DNA from: Nannocystineae bacterium
GTDB taxonomy: Bacteria; Myxococcota_A; Polyangia; Haliangiales; Haliangiaceae
Direction of reading: 5' to 3'
Assembly (NCBI GenBank): GCA_007133195.1
Contig: SLNH01000439.1
Span: 1-32,965 of the forward strand
Length of the DNA: 32,965 nt
Shown here: one piece after another, positions 1 through 15,851 of the stretch
How positions within the stretch are numbered: position 1 is the first letter of the stretch
Layout of the letters: each line of letters starts with the position of its first letter
The notes under the pieces: model-generated
Databases searched by the model: none
Told to the model about the DNA's origin: nothing
The model's input: the letters and a program-made list of their open reading frames with translations, nothing else
Program-made: the position numbers and the translations under genes

Positions 1-742
1 ACACGATATTGGGATGGGACAGCGAGCTCGCGAGCTGCGCTTCGCGGTAGAACAGATCGCGCACCTTGCTCTCGCCGGCGAAGTTTTGATGGATGATTTT
101 GAGGGCGAACGTCTTTTCGAGGTGCGCGTGCGTGACCTCGAAAACCTTGCCCATGCCGCCTTCGCCGATGCGGTGGATGATCCGATAGCGCCCGCCGATG
201 AGCTGTCCTTCGCCTACGCCATCGCGGGTGATCGCGCTCGCACTCGGCGGTCTGGACACGGTCTGGTGCGCGCCGGGGACGCTCGGGTTGTCGCGCCTAC
301 CGCGGGTCGCTTCGCGGCTCCGCGCGTCTTGGACTTGCGCGCCGAGAACATGGGGACCAGAGGCGTCGTCGTCGGGGGGCGCCGCGATGGGTACGGAGTC
401 GTGTCCCGCGGGCGGACCCGCGCGGAGCGGTAACCTCGCCTCGGTCTCGGGTTCGAGATCCTCGTCCGGCTGGACGTCCGGAGACGTTTCGTAGACCGCT
501 TCTTCCGGGGGCTGGCCGACGATGGTGGGCGCTTCGTCGCTCTCTCCCCAGTCTTCGGGTGGGGCCAGGGGGAGCGCGGGGAACTCCGGGTTTTGCGGTC
601 TTTGCACGTACTGACTTACGCGGACGCGGCCTTCTTGCTTCCGCCGGGAATCGGCGTCGGCTTGGCGCTCGTGGGAGCGCGGTTCCCGCGGTGCGCCGTG
701 GTCCCGATACCCCACGGTGGCCCATTGTAGGGGTCGAAGCAT
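1..742 (-). CDS. Ser/Thr protein kinase, N-terminal part (cut by window edge)
   Basis: Read on the minus strand, the frame runs open to the left edge. It contains the start of a Hanks-type kinase: [20 protein letters not shown] (glycine-rich loop, about residues 180-200), then [10 protein letters not shown] with the ATP-anchoring lysine, then [14 protein letters not shown] (helix C region). The catalytic loop and the rest lie outside the window. About 180 residues before the kinase domain are Pro/Glu/Asp-rich and probably disordered. The start is uncertain: ATG at 742 is the first in-frame ATG seen, but the first ~45 codons have weaker G/C bias at the third position, so GTG at 607 is a serious alternative, and neither has a clear ribosome site. 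The gene is divergent from the SpoIIE phosphatase genes and may be part of the same signalling island. The kinase call is firm; start and substrate are unknown. Confidence 0.85.
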
Positions 743-777
743 TGGATGCCTAGGATATCCGTCGAAAAACCTGGCCA

Positions 778-972
778 ATGTTTCGAGCCAAGAAAATGGA
801 GGTGGCTGATATCCCACATCCTCCGTCATGGGCACCAGTGATCCCTCACGTGCGGGAGGAATTTCCAGCGAACGTCCTGACGAGCCAGGCGCGCCTGGGT
901 TACGATGTGATCCGCTGCCGGCTCCTCTGTAAGGAGGGTAATACTCGGCACGTCATTTTCAGGTGCAAGTAG
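778..972 (+). CDS. Small ORF directly abutting the SpoIIE phosphatase gene (doubtful)
   Basis: A 64-codon ORF starting ATG-TTT-CGA ends with TAG at 970-972, so its stop touches the GTG start at 973. I recognise no domain. It has Cys residues near the C-terminus (RCRLLCKEG and FRCK). Third-position GC is clearly lower than in the neighbouring genes and no ribosome site precedes the ATG. An orphan AAGGAGG lies inside it at 931-937, about 35 bases before 973, too far to serve that start directly. It could be a leader peptide, a decayed gene end or chance. The rest of the 743-972 divergent intergenic region shows nothing I can name. Confidence 0.2.
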
Positions 973-2439
973 GTGGGATTTCCCTGGGTGACCGCGATGC
1001 TCCTCGCCCTCCCCGGCGTCGTTCTCGGCGTCGTCGGTGGACTCGTGGGGCCGACTACGCTGCTCGGCGTCGTCCTCGTCGCTGCGGGCGGCCTGTATAT
1101 CGCCGCCGATGTGATCTTCCTGCAGCCAAAGTTGGCGAAGGAGAGGCAGGCCAAAGGGCGGCGCGAGCGCGCGGCGGATCACTTCCTACAGCGCGCGATC
1201 GAGCTCACCGCGGTCGCGGACGTCGCCGATCAGCTCGCCCGTGCCGTCGCGGCAGGGCTCGGCCCGGCGCCCGCCTATCTTCTGGCCCCTGGCGGCGAGG
1301 GGGGCGCGAGGCTTTATGGCGCCGCCGGAACCAGCCCGCCTGAGCTCGAGATCGACCCGGCGCAGGCGCTTTCCTGGCTCGGCGAGCAGGACGGGCCCGT
1401 GCGCCGGGCCGACGTCGACTCGACTGATCACGGCGGGGCCGAATTCCTGACGCTGTTGGACGCCACCGGGTGCGACACGGCGCTACCGCTGCGCTACCGC
1501 GGCCTGTTGCTGGCGGTGGGACTCGTGAGGGAACGGGAGGCGCCGGCGGCCCAGGACGCCACCGGCTTTTATCGCGCGCTGCGAAGCTACGCGACGGTGG
1601 CGGTCGCGAACACATTCCTCGGCGCGCGGGCGTCCGACAGCGGCGCGCTCGCGTCCAGCGTTGATTTGGCCACCGCCGCCCAGGAGTCGCTCATGCCGGA
1701 TGAGCGCGTGGTCGCCGGAGCGGGGTACGCGCTCCGCGGCGTCTACCGGCCGGCGTCCCAGTGCGGCGGCGATCTTTGGACATGGCGGGAGCTCGACCGC
1801 GGACGCGTCCTCGTCGTCGTCGGCGACGCCACAGGCCACGGCATGGCGCCGGCGCTTCTGGCCGCGGCCGCCCGGGGGGCGATAGACGGCGTGTGGCAGC
1901 TGCGCGGCGCCGCCCTCGATCCGGGCGAACTCCTCACCATCGTCAACCGCGCCGTCCACCGTACGGGTCGCCGCCGCTATCTCATGACGGCGTTCGCGCT
2001 CGTGTTGGATGCCGAGGCCGGCGAGCTCGCGTTTGCGAACGCGGGCCAGAATTTCCCGTATGTTTGCGCGGGGGAGAACATCGAGGCGCTCGTCGCCCGT
2101 GGAAATCCACTGGGGTCTGGAGCCGAGGCGACCTTCGAGTCGGCCACGCGCACGCTTGCGGCCGGGCAAAGGCTGCTCCTGTTCACGGATGGCATCGTCG
2201 AGACCGAGGGGCCGCGCGGCGGGGCGTTCGGCGAGCGACGCTTTCGCAGGGCCGTCTCACAGCTCGCCGGCGAGCGACTGCAGCGCGTGCCGGAACGGCT
2301 GTTGGCGGCGGCGGCTGAGCACGCCGGCGAGGTGCCCATCGCCGACGATCTGACGGTCGTGGTCGTGGAGCTAAGCCCCGCAGACCGCCCTTCGGGAGAA
2401 CTGACGGCCGCGGGCACGAGCGCGGGCGAGTCGCGCTAG
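973..2439 (+). CDS. SpoIIE-family PP2C phosphatase, membrane-anchored, with GAF-like region
   Basis: A 488-residue protein. Residues 7-50 form two hydrophobic segments, followed by a basic stretch. A GAF-like region covers about 75-215. The C-terminal half (about 225-466) is a SpoIIE/RsbU-type phosphatase: GGDLW (265-269), GDATGHG (284-290), NAGQN (356-360), FTDGIVE (404-410) and ADDLTVV (457-463). The metal-binding aspartates expected for the family are present, so it should be active. RsbU-type enzymes usually dephosphorylate STAS-domain anti-sigma antagonists; no such substrate gene is visible here. GTG at 973 is used because an in-frame TAG immediately precedes it; GTG 988 and ATG 997 are possible. 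It is the first of several same-strand signalling genes. No sensory ligand can be predicted. Confidence 0.9.
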   Translation: MGFPWVTAMLLALPGVVLGVVGGLVGPTTLLGVVLVAAGGLYIAADVIFLQPKLAKERQAKGRRERAADHFLQRAIELTAVADVADQLARAVAAGLGPAPAYLLAPGGEGGARLYGAAGTSPPELEIDPAQALSWLGEQDGPVRRADVDSTDHGGAEFLTLLDATGCDTALPLRYRGLLLAVGLVREREAPAAQDATGFYRALRSYATVAVANTFLGARASDSGALASSVDLATAAQESLMPDERVVAGAGYALRGVYRPASQCGGDLWTWRELDRGRVLVVVGDATGHGMAPALLAAAARGAIDGVWQLRGAALDPGELLTIVNRAVHRTGRRRYLMTAFALVLDAEAGELAFANAGQNFPYVCAGENIEALVARGNPLGSGAEATFESATRTLAAGQRLLLFTDGIVETEGPRGGAFGERRFRRAVSQLAGERLQRVPERLLAAAAEHAGEVPIADDLTVVVVELSPADRPSGELTAAGTSAGESR

Positions 2440-2541
2440 GGCGGCGAACGGTTTGAGGATCTAACGCCGAGCTTCGTGATTGGTTAAAACGTCGCCTCTT
2501 ATGATCCATCGATTTCGGATGACGGCGCAAACAACGACAAC

Positions 2542-3918
2542 ATGGAGCCTCCCGTGAGCGCGTTGCCCGCTGCGATCATCATCGGTGCGGCCCTCGCCTC
2601 CGGCTGGGCCATCGCGAGCGTGGTCGCGACCCGGCGGCAGGCGAGCGGCGGGGTGGGCGAGGCGCGGGCGCGCGAGGCGCTCGTCGAGTTTTCCGAGCAC
2701 TCCCTCGAGTTGGAAACCACGCACGACCTGCTCACCTTCGCCGGCAAGGCGTCGCTGGCGATCTTCGGCAGCGAGCGCACCGTGGCGTTTCAACCGGGGG
2801 AGGAGTCGGGCGAGTGGGAGGCCTGGGGCCCCGCCGGAGACACGCTGCAGCCGGTGCCCGCGCACCTGCGCAGCGTGTTCGCGTGGTTTCGCCATAACAA
2901 CCTGATCGCGGTGGCGAGCGATCTGGGGAAAGCCCGATTCGGAGCCATGCGCGAGCCGCTCAAGCAGCTTTTCGGCCGCTACGGGCTCGACGTTCTCTTG
3001 CCGCTCATCAAGGGCGACGATGTCCTCGGCGTGCTCGGGCTCTCCCTCGGCCGGAACCCCAGCCCGCTCGAGCGAGAGCTGATGTACGTGTTTCAGCTCC
3101 AGGCGACGGCGGCCTACGCCAACGTGCTACTCCACCACGAGGCAGCCCACATCGTGTCGCTCGCGGAGGAGGTCGACCTCGCGAGCTCCGTCGAGCTCGC
3201 CCTCGTGCCCGCGGCGAGCGAAGGAACCCGCGGGGCCGTGAGTTGGGCGGGCCATTTCGAGTCGGCGGGCGAGGGAGGGAGCGACTTTTGGAGCGCGTAC
3301 GAGCTCGAAGACGGGCGCGTCGCCTTCGTCATCGGCGACGCCCTCGCGGGTGGCCTGGGTGGCTCGATGATTTCGGCCGTCGTCAAGAGCTGCGCCGACG
3401 TCATTTTCGAAAACGCCCCGGCCGACCTAAACCCGGGGACGCTCATGTCCATGCTCAGCCGGGCCCTGCGCCTGCGCGCTGAGCGCGGCGGGCAAACCAG
3501 GTGCTTCGCGGCGTTCGTGGACCCGGCAGCGAGCGAAATCACGTTCGCGAACGCAGGTCAGCCGGCTCCCTACGTCGTGGAGCACGGCGAGGGGGAGGCG
3601 AAGCTCGGCGCGCTGGCCCGGCCGGGGCTTTTGCTCGGGGACACAGACGGCCCCGACGTCGCCTACGAGGTCGTGCGCCGGCCGCTGTCCCCAGGGGCCG
3701 CGGTCGTGCTCTGCACCGACGGCTTGACGAGCACGGGCGCCGACGCACGCACGGGCGAGCGGCGTCTTCAGCGGCTACTGCGAACGAGTCGGGCGACGTC
3801 GGCCCCCGAGCTGCGCGACGCGATCGTCACCGAAATGCGCGAGCACCGCGCCGGGACCCCTGCGCGAGACGATGCGGCGCTCGTCGTGCTAAGGCTGGCG
3901 AAAGACGCGGCCGAGTAG
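2542..3918 (+). CDS. SpoIIE-family phosphatase paralogue with altered GHG motif
   Basis: 458 residues with the same architecture as the preceding gene: one N-terminal membrane helix (about 8-29), a GAF-like region (about 50-200) and a SpoIIE-type phosphatase domain. Motifs are GGSDFW (245-250), GDALAGG (265-271), NAGQP (337-341), CTDGL (391-395) and ARDDAALVVL (441-450). The core aspartates survive, but the usual GDxTGHG is GDALAGG, so the histidine and its glycines are changed. Activity may be altered or the protein may act as a regulator of its neighbour. The start ATG at 2542 lies about 100 bases after the upstream stop. The pair probably arose by duplication and diverged strongly. Family assignment is firm; catalytic status is inference. 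Confidence 0.88.
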   Translation: MEPPVSALPAAIIIGAALASGWAIASVVATRRQASGGVGEARAREALVEFSEHSLELETTHDLLTFAGKASLAIFGSERTVAFQPGEESGEWEAWGPAGDTLQPVPAHLRSVFAWFRHNNLIAVASDLGKARFGAMREPLKQLFGRYGLDVLLPLIKGDDVLGVLGLSLGRNPSPLERELMYVFQLQATAAYANVLLHHEAAHIVSLAEEVDLASSVELALVPAASEGTRGAVSWAGHFESAGEGGSDFWSAYELEDGRVAFVIGDALAGGLGGSMISAVVKSCADVIFENAPADLNPGTLMSMLSRALRLRAERGGQTRCFAAFVDPAASEITFANAGQPAPYVVEHGEGEAKLGALARPGLLLGDTDGPDVAYEVVRRPLSPGAAVVLCTDGLTSTGADARTGERRLQRLLRTSRATSAPELRDAIVTEMREHRAGTPARDDAALVVLRLAKDAAE

Positions 3919-3942
3919 TGTCCCACTAGACAAGTGCCTCTA

Positions 3943-3963
3943 GGCGCCACGAGATCGGGCGCC
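3943..3963. terminator. Hairpin after the phosphatase pair, possible terminator
   Basis: GGCGCC at 3943-3948 and 3958-3963 can form a 6-bp stem with a 9-base loop, 24 bases after the stop of the second phosphatase gene. There is no T-run, so an intrinsic terminator role is only suggestive. Confidence 0.25.
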
Positions 3964-4093
3964 GCCCGGGGAGAGCGGGGGTAAGGGCGCCGAAGACGGG
4001 TGGTGTTTCATCATGACGTAAGGCGCGGCCCCGGCTACGATGGTTGGTGTTACGCGCAACTCTGGGACCCTTACCTCGAGGGAGAAACGCGGC

Positions 4094-4654
4094 ATGGGAT
4101 TTTTCGATCGACGCGACGATAAGAAGAAGGCCGACGCATTCGACTCACCCGTCGAAACGATCGATCTGGACGCGCCGCCGCCCGAACCGGAGCCTCCAGC
4201 CGAGCCCGCGGCCCAGTCGGCCCCGCCGATCGCGGCGGACTACGGCGTCGACCAGGCGATTCAGCTGATGCGTACGCTGCCGCAGGACAACGTCGAGCTC
4301 GTGGTTCAGGTCGTCAAGCACACGCTCGAGTCTGCTCAGATTCAGATCTCCCATATCATTGATGACGCGACACACCGGCAGCAGGACATCGAGGGGCGAG
4401 TCCAGGTCCTCAAGGACGAGATCGCCGAGCTGGAAAAGGAGATCTCCACCCGAAAGCAGGAGATCGAACGGCTCGAGGCGGATCACGAGGAAACCACCAC
4501 GGTCAGGGATCGGCTCGTGTTGGCCGAGAAGCTCGAGACCGGTGGCGCCGCGCAAAAGCCGGGAGGAAAAGCGTCGAGCGCCAAGGCCCGCGGCGCGCCT
4601 CCGGCGAGCGACAAGACGACGCCGAAGCCGAACAAGGTCGACGCTGAGAAATGA
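4094..4654 (+). CDS. Small coiled-coil protein of unknown function
   Basis: 186 residues, starting MGFFDRRDDKKK. I chose ATG 4094 over the upstream in-frame ATG 4040 because GAGGGAG lies about 9 bases before it and the sequence between is not convincingly coding. Order: charged N-terminus (1-12), Pro/Glu/Ala-rich linker (about 25-47), helical segment (about 50-92), heptad-like coiled coil (about 93-146, rich in E, K, L, I), then a basic Lys/Ala/Pro tail. No signal peptide or membrane helix is seen, so it is probably cytoplasmic. Its place between the SpoIIE phosphatases and the RsbW-like ATPases suggests a scaffold or partner in the same pathway, but that is inference from position. I do not recognise the family. 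Confidence 0.75.
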   Translation: MGFFDRRDDKKKADAFDSPVETIDLDAPPPEPEPPAEPAAQSAPPIAADYGVDQAIQLMRTLPQDNVELVVQVVKHTLESAQIQISHIIDDATHRQQDIEGRVQVLKDEIAELEKEISTRKQEIERLEADHEETTTVRDRLVLAEKLETGGAAQKPGGKASSAKARGAPPASDKTTPKPNKVDAEK

Positions 4655-4720
4655 TAAGGCGGAGCGAGCGCGTCTGGGATGGTTTGGTTAAGCCTCTGGC
4701 TCGCGGTGCCGCGCAGTCTG

Positions 4721-4871
4721 CTAGTGGTTCACGGCGGAAGTCGTAACCACGGAAAAACAACGATCAGAACTGTAGCGAGGATACGAAGGACCTGGAACCG
4801 GCCTGCGCCCGCCCTCGCCCCCGCCAGGGGCGGGCGTCGGACGGTGCATCACTTCTGCCGAGCTCATCTAG
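4721..4871 (+). repeat. MITE-like dispersed repeat, copy A
   Basis: Non-coding element whose core is 4725-4867, about 93% identical by eye to the core at 12657-12800. It is flanked by CTAG on both sides (4721-4724 and 4868-4871), like a 4-bp target duplication. The ends are imperfect inverted repeats: the left carries CGGCGGAAGT and the reverse complement of the right carries CGGCAGAAGT. It contains a hairpin, GTGGTTCACG (4724-4733) against CGTAACCAC (4742-4750), with one base missing compared with copy B. A GC hairpin, CGCCCGCC (4806-4813) with GGCGGGCG (4829-4836), follows. It fills most of the gap between the coiled-coil gene and the next ATPase gene and ends 14 bases before that gene's ATG, so it may supply its 5' untranslated region. 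Confidence 0.85.
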
Positions 4872-4885
4872 CAGAGCACAGCTGA

Positions 4886-6238
4886 ATGCTTCACTACCAC
4901 ATGGCGGTCATCACCCGCGACACCGCGCTCAAGCGCGCGGTCAAGCGACTCAGCACCGCAACCGGCGCCACCGCCGAGTTTACGCCCGACGTGCGCGGGC
5001 TCGAAGGCGCGCGCAGGCCAAACTTGGCGATCTTCGACGCCCGCCGGCGGACACCCGACGAGGCGTTTTACAAGGCCGTGCCGTCCGACGCGCGGATCCT
5101 GTTTATCCTCGAGGGCGACACGCTCCTCGAAAAGCTCGAGCTCCTCGCCGACGAGCGGGTCACGAGCCTGTTTTGCCACGACGCCCGCTTCGACGACGAC
5201 GAGTTCATCTGCAGCGCGACCAAGGCCCTGCGCGGGGAGGTGTTCGGGCTGCAGAAGTACTTCCCGTGGGGGGTTACGACCTTCACCATGAAGGTGAAAA
5301 ACTACGAGGAGAAGGGCAAGGCGATCGACATCCTGATGCGGTACGCGAAGCTCGCTGGGGTGCGCGGCCCCGTGCGCGATCGCGTCCAGCTCGTTTGTGA
5401 CGAGCTCATGATGAACGGTCTTTACCACGCGCCGGTGGACGACGAGGGAAACGAGCTTTACGCGGGCTACTCGGTGAGGGAGCTCGCGCAACTGTCGGGG
5501 GTCCCCCCGATCCAGGTTCAGTACGGCTGCAGCGGCCGGTACTTCGGCGTGTCCGTCACCGACGGCGGTGGTTCGCTCACCCGCGCGAGGACGCTCGAAT
5601 ATCTCCGCCGCGCGCTCGGTGAGGTGGAGATCGAGGATAAGAAGACCGGCGCGGGCCTCGGCCTCGTGAGCGTGATGCGCTCGGTGTCCAAGCTCATTTT
5701 CAACGTCAAGCCCGGCCACGCCACCGAGGTGGTGGCGTTGTTCGACATGGAGCTGTTCGCCAAGGGAAAAATCGGCGCGCGCTCTCTGCACATCTTCGCC
5801 GACGAGCCTGAGCCCGAGGACACGGTGGTCGAGGCGGACATGTCGGACAAGCCGGCCACCTCGGGCGGGGCGCGCTCCGGGGTGTCGGCGAGCGCGACCT
5901 TCCTTCTCGTGTTTTTGGCCCTCGCCGCCGGCGGCATGGGCGCGGCGTACTACCTGCAGGAAGTCGCCGGGGTCGATGGGGGGGAGGGGGCGCAGCCGAA
6001 ACTTCGGGTTACCGCACAGCCGGAGAGCGCCACCGTCACGATGAACGGCGACGAAATTGCCGTGGGCGAGACGGTGACGGTGCCCGACGGGCAGGCCCTC
6101 GATCTCGTTGTCGAAAGCCCGGGTTATGAGCCCTGGCGCTACGAGCTGTCCCGAGACGACATCGCGGAACACCCCGCCGTGACGCGCGAGTTTCACGTCC
6201 CGCTGGTGCCCGCGGACGCCGGCTCGGGCGACAGATAG
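4886..6238 (+). CDS. Membrane RsbW/GHKL-type ATPase with receiver-like N-terminus and PEGA-like tail
   Basis: 450 residues. Residues about 5-115 look like a receiver fold without a convincing phospho-acceptor set. A linker, GEVFGLQKYFPWGV (117-130), is shared with the next gene. The ATPase domain has an N box CDELMMN (171-177), G1 box TDGGGSL (225-231) and G2 box TGAGLGL (254-260), but no dimerisation/phospho-histidine segment is evident, so it resembles anti-sigma kinases (RsbW) rather than a standard sensor kinase. One membrane helix (about 336-358) precedes a single PEGA-like domain (about 372-422). ATG 4886 is preferred over ATG 4904 because the start then aligns without gaps to the paralogue downstream (both begin ML, with I9, T13 and L15 matching). 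It likely binds ATP inside the cell with the tail outside; the substrate is unknown. Confidence 0.85.
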   Translation: MLHYHMAVITRDTALKRAVKRLSTATGATAEFTPDVRGLEGARRPNLAIFDARRRTPDEAFYKAVPSDARILFILEGDTLLEKLELLADERVTSLFCHDARFDDDEFICSATKALRGEVFGLQKYFPWGVTTFTMKVKNYEEKGKAIDILMRYAKLAGVRGPVRDRVQLVCDELMMNGLYHAPVDDEGNELYAGYSVRELAQLSGVPPIQVQYGCSGRYFGVSVTDGGGSLTRARTLEYLRRALGEVEIEDKKTGAGLGLVSVMRSVSKLIFNVKPGHATEVVALFDMELFAKGKIGARSLHIFADEPEPEDTVVEADMSDKPATSGGARSGVSASATFLLVFLALAAGGMGAAYYLQEVAGVDGGEGAQPKLRVTAQPESATVTMNGDEIAVGETVTVPDGQALDLVVESPGYEPWRYELSRDDIAEHPAVTREFHVPLVPADAGSGDR

Positions 6239-6354
6239 TGCGCGCTCCGGTTCGAGGGTGCGCCGTGGGCCCGGTCGGAAGGCCACGCTCCTTGCCCGGG
6301 CGGCGTCGGCCCGGGAATTGCTGATCTGCGCGCCGACCGATAGGATTCCCAAGA

Positions 6355-8460
6355 ATGTTGTCGAAACGAGCGATCGCCATTGCGGCGGAGACGTCTTTGC
6401 GGAAACGCGTTTCCGCAGCGCTGATGGCGGCGGGCAGCGCGGTGGACAGCTATTCGTCCCCCGGCGCTGTCGCCAACGCAGGCGAGGTCGATCTCGCCGT
6501 TTTGTGCGTGGACAGCGGCCGCGACAGCCCGTGGCTCGCCGACCTGCGGCGCCGCTTGGGCGAGGGGGTGCCGATTGTCGTCGTGCTACCCGCTCCCTCG
6601 CTCGAGGACACGGTCGCCGCGATGCGGAGCGAGGGCGTGGCGGCCGTGCTCTCCGCCGATGACCTGGGGAGCGGTGAGCTCCCCAACGTGGCCGCTCGAC
6701 TGCTTTTCGGAGACGTCTTCGGGGTCGACAAGCTCGTGCCCTGGGGCGTCCGCGTTCACACCGTCTTCGTCGGCAGCTACGAGGACAAGACCATCGCCAT
6801 CCGCGAGACGTCGGAGTTCGCCGAGCGGCTCGGCGTGCGTCGCAAGTACAGGGAGCTCATCGAGCAATGCCTCGACGAGATGTTGATGAACGCCCTGTAC
6901 GACGCGCCCGCCGACGACAGCCGCAGGGCCCCGCGCGGCTCGAAGGGAGGCCAGGCCCGCGCCTCGATGGAGCTCGGCGACCGGGCGGTCGTGGAGTACG
7001 GGTGCGATGGAACGACGTTTACTTTGGCGGTGCGCGACGCGTTCGGCACGCTCGAGCGGGATACGGTCGTTTGGTACCTGGACAAGTGCCTGCACGCGAA
7101 CGAGCAGATCGACCGCAAAGAGGGGGGCGCAGGGCTGGGGCTGTATCTCATCGCGAACGCGAGCACGCAGTTTTTCATCAACTTCCAGCCCGGGGTGGCG
7201 ACGGAGGTGTCGTGTCGGTTCGATCTCACTGCGCCGAAAGTTCGGCTCAAAGCGCTGGGGATCTTCGAGGAGAAGCAGGACTCGGCCGCTCGTATCGCCG
7301 CGCCCGCCCAAGCGACGTCCGCGCCACGAGGGCTCATCGCCGCGCTCGCCACGTCCGTGGCGGTGATCTTGGTGCTCACGGCCATGGTGGCGTATCCCCA
7401 GCTGGCGCCGGTGCCCACGGGGGACGTGCGCGCTGAGACCGTGCCGGCAGGGGCGGATGTCGAGATCGACGGGCAGCTCGCGAGCGCGGGCGAGGGCGCG
7501 CCCGCGGTGTTTCGAGACCTCGAGGCCGGCAGGCACCACATCATCACGGCGCGACTGGACGGCTACGAGGAGGAGGCCGCGATCGTGACGCCGGCGGAGG
7601 ATGAAGTCACCGAGGTCGAGATCGTCCTCGAGCCCGAGCGCGTTCCGGTCGATCTGACAAGCGAGCCGTCGGGGGCCGAGATCTTCATCGACGGTGAGCT
7701 GCGCGGCCGCACACCGCAGGTGCTGGAGTTCCCGGCGGGCAGCGAGACCGAGGTCCGGTTCGAGCGGGACGGCTACGCGCCTGCGGATGAGCGCGTGTTC
7801 GCATCGGCGGAGGCGAGCGAAGATGCTGTGACCGCTATCTTGGAGCTCAGCCCCGGCAACGCCGCGGTGTCGATCACCTCCCAGCCGCTGGGCGCGACCG
7901 TTGCGATCGACGGAGACGAGCTCGCCGATGTGACACCCATCGATGAGCATTTGCTGCCGGCCGGCGAGCGGCACGTCATCGAGCTTTCGCGACCGGGCCA
8001 CGCCCCCGTGTCGCGAGAGCTCGTTCTCGAGGACGGAGAGCGCCGAGAGCTCGATATCGGGCTCGAGCCGGGCGGGCGCATCGACGTGGTCGCGAACGTC
8101 GGGTGGGCTCACCTTTCGATCCCCCAGCTCGACTGCGACAGCGTGGGCGGCATCCGCGGCTGTCCTGCGCCCGCGGGAACCTACCGGGTGCGGGTGAGGA
8201 GTCGTGACCCATTCGTGAGAAAAGACGTCGATATCTCCGTTGGCGAGGGAGATGAGAGGTTCTCGCTGAGGCTCGGAGTCGCCGAGACGGAGGACGATAG
8301 GTATGTCTTCGACGTGGAGGACGCGGAAGACCCGCCCACACGGGTTGCGTTCCAACCGGGCGCGCACACGGTGAACATCGTGGATCGAACGAACGGGGAG
8401 CGCCGAGAGCGCCAGATCGATGTCGCCGCCGGTGAGACGACGGTGGTCGCGTGGGAGTAG
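6355..8460 (+). CDS. Larger paralogue: RsbW/GHKL-type ATPase with three PEGA-like repeats
   Basis: 701 residues, paralogous to the preceding gene. It has a receiver-like N-terminus (about 5-115), the shared linker GDVFGVDKLVPWGV (119-132), and an ATPase domain with N box DEMLMN (174-179), a divergent G1 region RDAFGTL (227-233) and G2 box GGAGLGL (257-263). One membrane helix (about 326-349) is followed by three PEGA-like repeats (about 357-427, 430-499 and 503-571; signatures such as SEPSGAEIFIDGE and SQPLGATVAIDGD) and a further beta-rich C-terminal region (573-701). PEGA domains are usually extracytoplasmic and thought to bind envelope polymers, so the protein may couple an outside state to an inside kinase or anti-sigma activity. 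It is the last gene of the same-strand run; the next gene is convergent. Confidence 0.87.
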   Translation: MLSKRAIAIAAETSLRKRVSAALMAAGSAVDSYSSPGAVANAGEVDLAVLCVDSGRDSPWLADLRRRLGEGVPIVVVLPAPSLEDTVAAMRSEGVAAVLSADDLGSGELPNVAARLLFGDVFGVDKLVPWGVRVHTVFVGSYEDKTIAIRETSEFAERLGVRRKYRELIEQCLDEMLMNALYDAPADDSRRAPRGSKGGQARASMELGDRAVVEYGCDGTTFTLAVRDAFGTLERDTVVWYLDKCLHANEQIDRKEGGAGLGLYLIANASTQFFINFQPGVATEVSCRFDLTAPKVRLKALGIFEEKQDSAARIAAPAQATSAPRGLIAALATSVAVILVLTAMVAYPQLAPVPTGDVRAETVPAGADVEIDGQLASAGEGAPAVFRDLEAGRHHIITARLDGYEEEAAIVTPAEDEVTEVEIVLEPERVPVDLTSEPSGAEIFIDGELRGRTPQVLEFPAGSETEVRFERDGYAPADERVFASAEASEDAVTAILELSPGNAAVSITSQPLGATVAIDGDELADVTPIDEHLLPAGERHVIELSRPGHAPVSRELVLEDGERRELDIGLEPGGRIDVVANVGWAHLSIPQLDCDSVGGIRGCPAPAGTYRVRVRSRDPFVRKDVDISVGEGDERFSLRLGVAETEDDRYVFDVEDAEDPPTRVAFQPGAHTVNIVDRTNGERRERQIDVAAGETTVVAWE

Positions 8461-8539: not shown

Positions 8540-9694
<1,155 letters not shown>

Positions 9695-9700
9695 CGCGCG

Positions 9701-10888
9701 TCACCGCTCTTCGATGTGCCAGGGCAAGCCGGCGGGGCCCAGCGCTTCGAGGAACGGATCCGGATCGAGCTCCTCGATGTTGAAGACTCCCGCGCCCTTC
9801 CACGCCCCGCTCGCGATCATCTTGGCGCCGGTCGCCGCGGGGACGCCGGTGGTGTACGAGACCGCTTGGGCGCCGACCTCGCGGTAGGTCTCGGCGTGAT
9901 CGGTGACGTTGTACAAAAACACCCGCCGCGACTCGCCCGCCTTCTCGCCCTCGATGAGGCACCCGATGCTCGTTTTCCCGCGGTAGTCTTCCGCCAGCGA
10001 GCCCGGATCGGGCAACAGTGCCTTGAGAAACTGGATCGGGACGATGTCTCGGCCCTCGAAGCGCACGGGATCGATCCGGGTCATGCCCACGTTCTCGAGC
10101 ACCCTGAGGTGGGTGAGGTACTGCTCGGAGAAGGTCATCCAGAACCGGATCCGCTCGAGGCCAGGCAGGTTCTGGGACAGCGACTCGAGCTCTTCGTGGT
10201 ACATGAGATAGGCGCGCTGCGTGCCCACTTCGGGGAAGTCGAACTCCATCGACTCCGCGAGCGGCGCCGTGGTCTTCCACTCACCGCGGTCCCAGTAGCG
10301 GCCGGGCTGGGTGATCTCCCGGATATTGATCTCGGGATTGAAGTTCGTCGCGAACGGCCTGCCGTGGTCCCCGGCGTTACAGTCGAGGATGTCCACGGTG
10401 CGGATGTGATCGAAGAGATGCTTTTTCGCGTAGGCGCAAAACACGTTGGTCACGCCGGGATCGAAGCCCGAGCCGAGGAGCGCCATCAGCCCCGCGTCGC
10501 GGAACCGATCGTGATAGGCCCATTGCCACTTGTATTCGAACTTGGCCTCGTCCGGCGGCTCGTAGTTGGCCGTGTCGACGTAGGGGACGCCCACTTCGAG
10601 GCACGCCTCCATGATGGAGAGGTCCTGGTAGGGAAGCGCGACGTGGATGACCACATCCGGCTTCGCCTCGCGAAGGAGCGCCGCGGTCTGCCGGGCGTCG
10701 TCGGCATCCACCTGCGCGATCTCGATCTCGCGTCCCGTCCGCCGGCGCACGCTGTCTCGGATCTCCTCACAGCGCGCGCGTGTGCGGCTCGCCAACGTGA
10801 TATGCGCGAACGTGTGGTCGTCCTCAGCGCATTTGTGGGCGACCACGCGGCCGACGCCGCCGGCGCCGATGATCAATACCCTGCTCAT
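9701..10888 (-). CDS. Carboxynorspermidine/carboxyspermidine dehydrogenase (saccharopine dehydrogenase family)
   Basis: 395 residues. An NAD(P)-binding Rossmann motif, IGAGGVG (7-13), opens the protein, with the saccharopine dehydrogenase-type core after it (DVVIHVALPYQD, YVDTANYEPPDE, GSGFDPGVTNVF). This family reductively couples aspartate semialdehyde to diaminopropane or putrescine, giving carboxynorspermidine or carboxyspermidine. It is the first gene of the two-gene operon with nspC, which catalyses the next step; that context separates it from true lysine-pathway saccharopine dehydrogenases. The start ATG 10888 has GGAG about 8 bases upstream (minus strand). The leader just before it contains an eight-T tract flanked by CCGCC and GGCGG, which could pair over the ribosome site. 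Confidence 0.93.
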   Translation of the reverse strand: MSRVLIIGAGGVGRVVAHKCAEDDHTFAHITLASRTRARCEEIRDSVRRRTGREIEIAQVDADDARQTAALLREAKPDVVIHVALPYQDLSIMEACLEVGVPYVDTANYEPPDEAKFEYKWQWAYHDRFRDAGLMALLGSGFDPGVTNVFCAYAKKHLFDHIRTVDILDCNAGDHGRPFATNFNPEINIREITQPGRYWDRGEWKTTAPLAESMEFDFPEVGTQRAYLMYHEELESLSQNLPGLERIRFWMTFSEQYLTHLRVLENVGMTRIDPVRFEGRDIVPIQFLKALLPDPGSLAEDYRGKTSIGCLIEGEKAGESRRVFLYNVTDHAETYREVGAQAVSYTTGVPAATGAKMIASGAWKGAGVFNIEELDPDPFLEALGPAGLPWHIEER

Positions 10889-12849: not shown

Positions 12850-13266
12850 CTACTGAACCCGCCGCTGGGGTGCCGGCTTGGTGTTTTCCTTCTCCGCGAG
12901 ATGCACGTCGACGACGTCGATGTTGACCTCCACGACCTTGCGCCCCGCCATGCGATCGACCGCCTCGGCGACCTTGCTGCGGAGCTCACCGGCGACCTGG
13001 CGGATGTCGCACCCGTGCTCGATGATGACCTCGATGTCGAGCGCGGCCTCCTTCTGGCCGACCTCGGCGGCGACGCCGCGGGTGGGCTTGTCACCGCCGA
13101 AGTTCATGAGGCGCGACTTTCCGAGCGAATGAATGCCCGGGATGTCGCGGGCCGCGAGGCCCGCGATCGTCGCCACCACGTCCTGCGACATCTCGATGCG
13201 CCCCGCGACGCCGTCTGCGCCCGCCGGCGTCTCCTGGACGATATGCTTGACTGCTTTGGTCTCCAT
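12850..13266 (-). CDS. Asp23/Gls24-family protein
   Basis: 138 residues. The start ATG 13266 is set by GAGGAGAGG about 3-8 bases upstream; the frame is open slightly further. The core resembles Asp23/Gls24 proteins: SQDVVATIAGLAARDIPGI (about 26-44), RGVAAEVGQKEAALDIEV and VVEVNIDVVDVHLAEKE. In Gram-positive bacteria these proteins associate with the membrane and envelope stress. Here there is no membrane helix, so location would depend on a partner that is not visible nearby. The family is far commoner in Firmicutes and Actinobacteria, so its presence here is slightly unusual. It is upstream of tyrA on the same strand, but a 200 bp gap filled by the repeat element argues against simple co-transcription. 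Confidence 0.85.
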   Translation of the reverse strand: METKAVKHIVQETPAGADGVAGRIEMSQDVVATIAGLAARDIPGIHSLGKSRLMNFGGDKPTRGVAAEVGQKEAALDIEVIIEHGCDIRQVAGELRSKVAEAVDRMAGRKVVEVNIDVVDVHLAEKENTKPAPQRRVQ

Positions 13267-13454
13267 AGCCTCTCCTCGAAGTAGCGCGCCGGGTGGGCCC
13301 GGCTGGTTTGTTGGCTCCAACTTCAGGGTGCCCGAAGGCCAGATTACCAGATCGCGATACGGGCATACGAGCCTGCGGGCGCGTCGTTATGGGCGCAGGC
13401 GAGGTCTTCGCTGCCGAGAGAGGGGGGCCGCGTAGGCCGTGACCCTTCAGCGCC

Positions 13455-14006: not shown

Positions 14007-15851
14007 ATGCCGCCCCCGACCCAAGACGCGAGCGAACGCCTCACCTTGCGCGCCCGGCTGCGCCGGTTCGTCGGCGTGTTCCGGTTCAGCCGGCGGGCGA
14101 TGCGCCTTGTTTGGAGCACGAGCAAAAAGCTCACGATCGCGCTGTGCGTCCTCAGCATCGTCGCGGGCGCGCTGCCGGCGCTCATGGCCTACGTGGGCAA
14201 GCTCATCGTCGACGCCGTGGTGCTCGCGTCCGAGACCGGCGACGCCGAGGACCGGTGGCAGGCGCTCGCGTACATGCTCATCGAGGGCGGCCTCGCCCTC
14301 GCGCTGGCGGGCGCCGAGCGCGGCATCGAGATGTGCCGCTCGCTCTTGCGCGCGCTCCTCGGTCACCGCGTCAACGTGCTCGTCCTCGAAAAGGCCCTCA
14401 CGCTCGAGCTCCGGCACTTCGAGGACTCCGAGGTCTACGACAAGATGACCCAGGCCCGGCGCGAAGCCTCTACCCGGCCGCTCAGCCTGGTCATGCGCAC
14501 CTTCACTCTCGGCCAGCGCATGATCTCGCTCGTGAGCTACGCGGCGATCCTGCTTTCGTTCTCGGTGCTCGCGGTCGTCGTGCTCGTCATCGCCGCGCTG
14601 CCCGCGTTCATCGCAGAGGCCAAATATTCGGGCGAGGCGTTTCGACTGTTTCGATGGCGGACCCCGGAGGCCCGCGAGCAGATGTACCTCGAGACCGTGC
14701 TCGCGCGCGAAGATTACGTCAAGGAGGTCAAGCTTTTCGGGATCGGGCGCCATCTCCTCGACCGCTACGTGGGCATCTTCAAGCGCCTGTTTCGCGAGGA
14801 TCGGAGCCTGACCATCCGGCGCCACGTGTGGGGGTTTTTGCTCGGCTCGGTGAGCACGGCGGCGTTTTACGGCGCGTATGCGTGGATCATCGCGGAGACC
14901 GCCCGGGGCCAGATTTCCCTCGGCGACATGACCATGTACCTCATGGTGTTTCGCCAGGGGCAAAGCGCGCTGTCGTCTTCGCTCACCTCGGTGGGTGGCA
15001 TGTATGAGGACAATCTCTACGTCGCGAACCTCTACGACTTCCTCGAGCAGCCGGTGTCCGCGCCCACCGGCACCGAGACCTTCGGACCGGATCCGGGCGA
15101 CGGCGTTCGCTTCGAGTCGGTGTCCTTTGCCTATCCCGGAGCCTCGGAGCTCGCGCTTCGCGACGTATCGTTTCAGATTCGTCCGGGGGAGAAGCTCGCC
15201 CTGGTCGGGGAGAACGGGTCGGGCAAAACCACCCTGATCAAGCTCCTCGCGCGGCTTTACAACCCGAGCTCGGGCCGCGTGACCCTCGACGGCCTGGATC
15301 TTCGCGAGTGGGACCTTCGGGCGCTCCGCCGGCGCATCAGCGTCATCTTTCAGGACTTCGCGCGCTACCAGCTCAAAGTCGGCGAAAACGTCGGCGTCGG
15401 CGACGCGGTCGCGATGGCCGACGAGGAGCGCTGGGAGCGCGCCGCCGACAAGGGCCTCGCCGCGCCGTTCATCGCGCAGCTCCCCGAGAGGTACGAGACC
15501 CAGCTCGGCAGATGGTTTCGGGGCGGACGCGAGCTGTCGCTCGGCCAGTGGCAAAAGATCGCCCTTTCGCGGGCGTTCATGCGCGAAGGGGCGCCGATCA
15601 TGGTGCTCGACGAGCCCACCGCGTCGATGGACGCAGAGGCCGAAGCTCAGGTGTTCGAGCACGTGCGCGACGCGACGGGCGAGCAGATCGTCATCGTGAT
15701 CTCCCACCGGTTTTCGACCGTGCGCATGGCCGATCACATCATCGTGCTGGGTGACGGGGAGATCCAGGAGGAAGGCACTCACGGCGACCTCATGCGGCGC
15801 GGGGGCACCTACGCCCGCCTGTTCACGCTTCAGGCCGCGGGCTATCAGTAA
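14007..15851 (+). CDS. ABC transporter, fused permease and ATPase (type I exporter)
   Basis: 614 residues. The membrane domain (about 40-335) has hydrophobic segments near 43-65, 88-104, 175-205 and 275-297. The ATPase domain (about 365-610) carries Walker A GENGSGKTT (401-409), the Q-loop VIFQDF (Q449), signature LSLGQ (510-514, normally LSGGQ), Walker B MVLDEP (532-537) and the switch histidine in ISHRFS (H567). This is the MsbA/peptide-exporter architecture, working as a homodimer or with a partner half. The substrate cannot be inferred: no precursor peptide, accessory protein or lipid gene is adjacent. No clear ribosome site precedes ATG 14007, but the reading is consistent from there. 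Confidence 0.93.
   Translation: MPPPTQDASERLTLRARLRRFVGVFRFSRRAMRLVWSTSKKLTIALCVLSIVAGALPALMAYVGKLIVDAVVLASETGDAEDRWQALAYMLIEGGLALALAGAERGIEMCRSLLRALLGHRVNVLVLEKALTLELRHFEDSEVYDKMTQARREASTRPLSLVMRTFTLGQRMISLVSYAAILLSFSVLAVVVLVIAALPAFIAEAKYSGEAFRLFRWRTPEAREQMYLETVLAREDYVKEVKLFGIGRHLLDRYVGIFKRLFREDRSLTIRRHVWGFLLGSVSTAAFYGAYAWIIAETARGQISLGDMTMYLMVFRQGQSALSSSLTSVGGMYEDNLYVANLYDFLEQPVSAPTGTETFGPDPGDGVRFESVSFAYPGASELALRDVSFQIRPGEKLALVGENGSGKTTLIKLLARLYNPSSGRVTLDGLDLREWDLRALRRRISVIFQDFARYQLKVGENVGVGDAVAMADEERWERAADKGLAAPFIAQLPERYETQLGRWFRGGRELSLGQWQKIALSRAFMREGAPIMVLDEPTASMDAEAEAQVFEHVRDATGEQIVIVISHRFSTVRMADHIIVLGDGEIQEEGTHGDLMRRGGTYARLFTLQAAGYQ

Follow-up and report, generated by a model that had tools for sequence, protein, structure and literature searches.

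The window, the whole 32,965-nucleotide stretch of DNA that we analysed, is contig C160 of a draft genome (5.64 Mb, 496 contigs). Its first 8,460 positions had been read from sequence as a kinase gene, two SpoIIE phosphatase genes, a coiled-coil protein gene and two ATPase genes, and this inventory proved accurate, with every gene present where it had been placed:

2..835, minus strand: N-terminal part of a Ser/Thr protein kinase (Pfam Pkinase 8e-9), running off the contig
973..2439, plus strand: PP1, membrane SpoIIE-type phosphatase (SpoIIE 3e-38, 132 bits) with two N-terminal transmembrane (TM) helices
2542..3918, plus strand: PP2, diverged SpoIIE-type phosphatase (SpoIIE 1e-27, 97 bits) with one N-terminal TM helix
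4094..4654 (open reading frame opens at 4040), plus strand: CC, small coiled-coil protein with the family start, a conserved block and a coiled coil
4886..6238, plus strand: A1, receiver (REC)-like domain with the Asp kept, RsbW-fold ATPase, TM helix at ~333-351 and a short C-terminal domain (weak PEGA)
6355..8460, plus strand: A2, pseudo-receiver (Asp slot occupied by Cys51), RsbW-fold ATPase, TM helix at 328-350, three PEGA stretches and further beta domains

GC3 lies between 0.79 and 0.88 in PP1, PP2, CC, A1 and A2, which supports all five as real coding genes. They are co-directional within 7.5 kb and separated by gaps of 102-231 bp, a spacing that does not suggest one tight operon here. 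Scanning for promoters and terminators revealed nothing beyond chance (0 promoter-like sites; 7 terminator-like sites against 3.9 +/- 2.0 by chance). No STAS protein or sigma factor was matched by Pfam among the 20 window proteins scanned, a set that leaves out several downstream open reading frames, including those at 14007, 16004, 25664 and 32158. The kinase fragment consists of a 216-residue low-complexity N-terminal stretch followed by the start of the kinase domain, and the gene is absent beside PP1-PP2 in the relatives examined. Directly after A2, two minus-strand genes at 8540-10888 resemble carboxynorspermidine decarboxylase and dehydrogenase and are unrelated to the finding; farther along, 12850-13320 (minus strand) encodes an Asp23-family protein (Pfam 3.7e-24).

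We prefer 4094 (Met-Gly-Phe-Phe) over 4040 as the start of CC because members of its family begin with MGxF and basic residues. Following the MGxFxxK start, CC carries a conserved YGI..AI.LMR.LP...ELVV.VVK.TLES block and then the coiled coil. Searches of Pfam and NCBIfam with CC returned generic coiled-coil matches only.

Domain structure of A1 and A2

The two ATPase domains score 17.0 and 21.1 bits for HATPase_c_2 (PF13581) and do not reach the Pfam cut-off of 27.4, which an A1 orthologue in genome G030 passes at 27.9 bits. We therefore modelled their structures with AlphaFold (pLDDT 81 for A1, mean 88 for A2). The A2 model comprises a receiver fold (1-118), an RsbW fold (~131-293), a TM helix (328-350) and beta domains (355-698), three of which are PEGA. 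In structure comparisons, A2 residues 133-292 align with RsbW 6m36 at Z 15.7 (rmsd 1.4, 103 aligned), and the ATPase parts match SpoIIAB at Z 15.6 for A2 (1th8) and Z 12.3 for A1. The RsbW assignment rests on these predicted structures, since profile searches of the PDB gave no RsbW match: the full-length A2 alignment found nothing at E 0.01, and a domain alignment of six rows matched receivers and, at a weak level, the ATPase domains of histidine kinases, but nothing else. As modelled, the A1 and A2 ATPase domains are of the RsbW/SpoIIAB type. We considered and rejected a conventional histidine kinase, because the DHp region is absent and, in both models, the RsbW fold follows directly on the receiver fold; A1 and A2 have no HisKA match, and no His is near-invariant across the ATPase family. 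The sequence-only reading, which had expected RsbW-type domains rather than a histidine kinase with a phospho-accepting His, is thus upheld on this point.

The family also has the boxes of a Bergerat fold, namely an N box (E...N), a G1 box (D.G) and a G2 box (G.G.G). The corresponding residues E175, N179, D228, G231, G258, G260 and G262 are invariant in 100 of 100 homologues. Such constancy across wide divergence argues that the domain at minimum binds and turns over ATP. In classic RsbW systems the RsbW protein is soluble, and envelope signals reach it via separate modules. A1 and A2 share the fold and the N, G1 and G2 boxes of RsbW/SpoIIAB proteins (PF13581), but they are neither small nor soluble stand-alone domains, having a REC-like domain ahead and a TM helix and tail behind. 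They differ further in sequence scores under the Pfam cut-off, in a Y-x-APVD insertion after the N box that marks the family, and in that no gene for a STAS or sigma partner lies next to theirs, as far as the window proteins were scanned.

Evidence for the receiver-like domain comes from a profile match to PhoP (E 8e-5) and from structure comparison, in which the A2 front domain matches receivers at Z up to 15.8. The phosphoacceptor column holds Asp in every row of the A1 clade and His, Ala or Cys in A2 orthologues proper. Although the A1 clade retains this Asp, the acidic pair of canonical receivers is absent. We read the site from the Asp slot and the acidic pair, the Lys column being not reliably placeable. 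Neither A1 nor A2 has the full Asp, acidic pair and Lys of a canonical phosphorylatable receiver.

One TM helix follows the ATPase domain in each protein, and beyond it the two tails diverge. PEGA repeats had been proposed for both ATPases. They are clear in A2 (95 bits over three stretches, above the Pfam cut-off; present in all 35 of its orthologues with E values no higher than 0.01) and weak in A1, which scores a sub-threshold 16.4 bits against a cut-off of 20.8. Among the nine A1 orthologues scanned, a clear PEGA match is limited to that of G039 (40.6 bits), with none in most others. Envelope sensing through PEGA is accordingly better founded for A2, whose tail is constant, than for A1.

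Gene units and their ancestry

The five plus-strand genes had been taken as one set, a view that a co-occurrence survey of relatives did not support. The survey instead uncovered three separate units, CC-A1, PP1-PP2 and A2 alone. The five-gene arrangement is present in no other genome examined and is known from one draft assembly. Retention of gene order in relatives thus fails for the set as a whole but holds for CC-A1.

A survey of the class, covering 318 genomes, found CC homologues in 31; A1 is the next gene in 13 of these 31, and the 13 span five families in the GTDB sense. Seen from A1, the linkage is complete: CC lies directly upstream in 13 of 13 A1-bearing genomes (gaps 3-231 bp), and a reverse search with A1 returned the same 13 genomes above a clear score drop. 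This adjacency supports the earlier linking of the coiled-coil protein to the ATPases in the case of A1, and CC is likely the partner of A1. The other 18 CC-bearing genomes have CC without A1, suggesting that its role is wider. In one relative, the CC domain is C-terminally fused to a PP2C-type Ser/Thr phosphatase (L236:4200-5408), which ties the CC family to protein dephosphorylation. Separately, a short CC homologue divergent from apparent YajC-SecD-SecF genes is kept in one family of the class (L231, L232, L233, L237).

Both PP1 and PP2 pass the Pfam SpoIIE cut-off. PP1 has the canonical motifs CGGD, DATGHG, TDG and DD, which its orthologues retain, and PP2 keeps the metal Asp residues and has lost the GHG motif. 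Other genomes carry PP1-PP2 as a tandem pair without the ATPases, and no relative examined links the pair to A1, A2 or CC. Further motif losses mark the PP2 orthologues of G039 and G035 (L152, L176), in which TDG has become TPG or APG and DD is changed; these are likely pseudophosphatases paired with an intact PP1. Given the lost GHG and the additional losses in two relatives, PP2 may be a weak or regulatory partner of PP1. We could not confirm that PP1 and PP2 have a GAF-like middle part; the one match was a sub-threshold hit to DUF3369 in PP2.

Judged from their sequences, A1 and A2 are old paralogues of different clades. We rejected a recent tandem duplication, since A1 falls in a fully supported clade and A2 in another. 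Identity to orthologues elsewhere is roughly 40-60% for A1 and about 40% for A2, and the two are about 30% identical to each other. A2 is more than chance, given full-length orthologues in about 30 genomes, where its neighbours are glycosyltransferases, a phosphodiester glycosidase (NAGPA) and an FHA-sigma54 activator. PP1, PP2, CC and A1 are not among these neighbours in the relatives examined for the A2 locus, apart from two genomes of one other family (G130, G131) that carry CC-A1 inside the A2 locus, about 6-12 kb from A2. This spacing indicates that CC-A1 and A2 have been near each other before. The genome studied here keeps the ancestral A2 neighbourhood on contig C462 (a PMT-type and a second glycosyltransferase, NAGPA and the FHA-sigma54 activator), continuing on C423, with A2 itself missing between glycosyltransferase and NAGPA. 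Because that locus is still present without A2, the simplest reading, from a single draft assembly, is that A2 probably moved next to CC-A1 in this genome. The branch leading to the window A2 is 0.85 long, longer than those of most orthologues. Part of one FHA-sigma54 activator gene is present on both C462 and C423, and the overlapping copies differ slightly; the assembly was probably split here. One 3.6-kb contig (L010) bearing the label Acidimicrobiia carries a close A2 orthologue, most likely through a binning error.

Paralogues place the family in a wider setting. On contig C296 of this genome (L203:2345-8813), a gene whose product combines STAS-like segments with a Ser/Thr kinase domain is followed by genes for a soluble REC-RsbW ATPase and a STAS protein and then, on the opposite strand, by one for a REC-SpoIIE phosphatase. 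In relatives, another ATPase-family member lies close to genes for a STAS-TM protein, a giant TPR protein, a PAS protein and a membrane SpoIIE, and six of the eight such loci fetched hold an ATPase matching the family profile. Members of a third, soluble ATPase clade sit directly upstream of Ser/Thr kinases in most loci listed, and the kinases scanned in relatives carry PEGA (3 of 3 from this clade, plus L200). These Ser/Thr kinase-PEGA receptors of Myxococcota likewise join a cytoplasmic phosphorylation-type enzyme to PEGA repeats, but the enzyme is a Hanks-type kinase, whereas A1 and A2 have a Bergerat ATPase. From this linkage of paralogues to STAS, SpoIIE and kinase-PEGA genes, a partner-switch-like role in Ser/Thr phospho-signalling is the best reading for the ATPase family. 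The partner-switching frame originally proposed therefore stands for the family, whose other members sit with STAS and SpoIIE genes, but not for a conserved five-gene set.

Two features of these loci deserve separate mention. The C296 STAS protein bears Cys-pair motifs, and the C296 cluster is a fuller partner-switch-like cluster than the window. Seven relatives (L261-L263, L265-L268) combine a giant TPR protein, a STAS-Cys-motif-TM protein, in most cases a PAS protein, a membrane SpoIIE and usually a REC-RsbW ATPase, apparently without a sigma factor.

Expanded sets of SpoIIE, STAS and COG2172 proteins were noted in Sorangium cellulosum in 2010, some of the STAS proteins being fused to Ser/Thr kinases (PMC2887360). 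The family studied here resembles those networks as a myxobacterial expansion of SpoIIE, STAS and RsbW-type kinases; it differs in its REC-RsbW-TM-PEGA proteins and coiled-coil partner, which the relevant passages of that paper do not describe (PMC2887360). Literature searches on PEGA with SpoIIE or partner switching, or with Myxococcus, turned up no architecture of the A1/A2 type.

A proposed tethered switch and its rivals

We hold with moderate confidence that the family of A1 and A2, present in multiple copies in myxobacteria, consists of receiver-gated switch ATPases of the RsbW/SpoIIAB type (Bergerat fold), with A1 most likely acting on CC and with SpoIIE-type reset. The domains, fold, catalytic motifs and topology, the CC-A1 linkage and the linkage of paralogues to STAS, SpoIIE and Ser/Thr kinase genes are observed; a kinase activity, the identity of the partner, a sensory tail and any part played by PP1-PP2 are inferred. 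In the A1 and A2 clades, the switch ATPase is tethered in the inner membrane with its tail on the envelope side. The cytoplasmic ATPase domain would bind ATP and then, most likely, phosphorylate or sequester a partner protein, its activity being set by the receiver-like domain and the outside tail. For A1, that partner would most likely be CC, which occupies the gene position held by a STAS antagonist in other family members. Resetting of phosphorylated partners would fall to SpoIIE-type phosphatases. Active-looking PP1 and diverged PP2 are the obvious candidates in this genome because they are next door to A1 and A2; their balancing of the ATPases, suggested by this adjacency and by the family context, is the weakest step.

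We tentatively go further and propose that the membrane-tethered ATPase acts on CC as a coiled-coil scaffold, not on a STAS protein or sigma factor, and so governs a structural or envelope process without acting directly on transcription. If true, a switch ATPase built into the membrane and paired with a gene for something other than a STAS protein or sigma factor would widen the range of partner-switching regulation. The CC-A1 pair, found in 13 genomes of five families, is a compact system of two proteins that lends itself to direct tests, and the contrast between A1 and A2, with the receiver Asp kept in one and lost in the other, is a natural experiment on switch gating.

We think it unlikely that the five genes form a single membrane partner-switching operon, in which A1 and A2 would phosphorylate CC, PP1 and PP2 would dephosphorylate it and the PEGA tails would sense the envelope. 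The co-directional layout within 7.5 kb is consistent with such an operon, and the apparent move of A2 from its ancestral locus suits recruitment. Across this genome, moreover, two of seven SpoIIE loci lie within about 2 kb of two of four ATPase loci, a proximity with a chance of about 1 in 1000 by rough estimate. Against this stand the absence of the arrangement from the other genomes examined and the separate locations of PP1-PP2 and A2 in relatives.

Lower still we place the possibility that the ATPases are anti-sigma factors like LvrC, with the receiver-like domain and tail controlling how a sigma factor from another locus is sequestered, and with CC serving as an accessory scaffold. LvrC of Leptospira is a REC-Bergerat anti-sigma factor (PDB 9qih; PMC13269768). 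It represents the closest known architecture, joining a receiver fold to an RsbW/SpoIIAB Bergerat domain as in A1 and A2. Across both domains it is the top structural match of A1 (Z 13.8, 259 aligned), at an rmsd of 19.9 that indicates differently placed domains; it was also an early Foldseek match of A2, and the fold is that seen in SpoIIAB-sigmaF. But the receiver of LvrC is canonical, whereas that of A1 retains just the Asp and that of A2 not even this; and LvrC as described lacks a membrane anchor and tail, while A1 and A2 each carry a TM helix and a tail on the envelope side. The missing phosphoacceptor Asp of A2 speaks against this reading, as does the lack of a sigma factor among the typed neighbours. 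The conserved neighbour of A2 in relatives is instead the FHA-sigma54 activator, and RsbW-type proteins are not known to target sigma54.

The least likely of these readings, and a quite improbable one, is that the ATPase domain does no more than bind ATP and serves as a scaffold or sensor that transfers no phosphate, with Ser/Thr kinases and phosphatases as partners and sequestration as output: the kinase-PEGA partners of the soluble clade, the degenerate receivers and the CC-PP2C fusion would fit, but every catalytic box is invariant over wide divergence.
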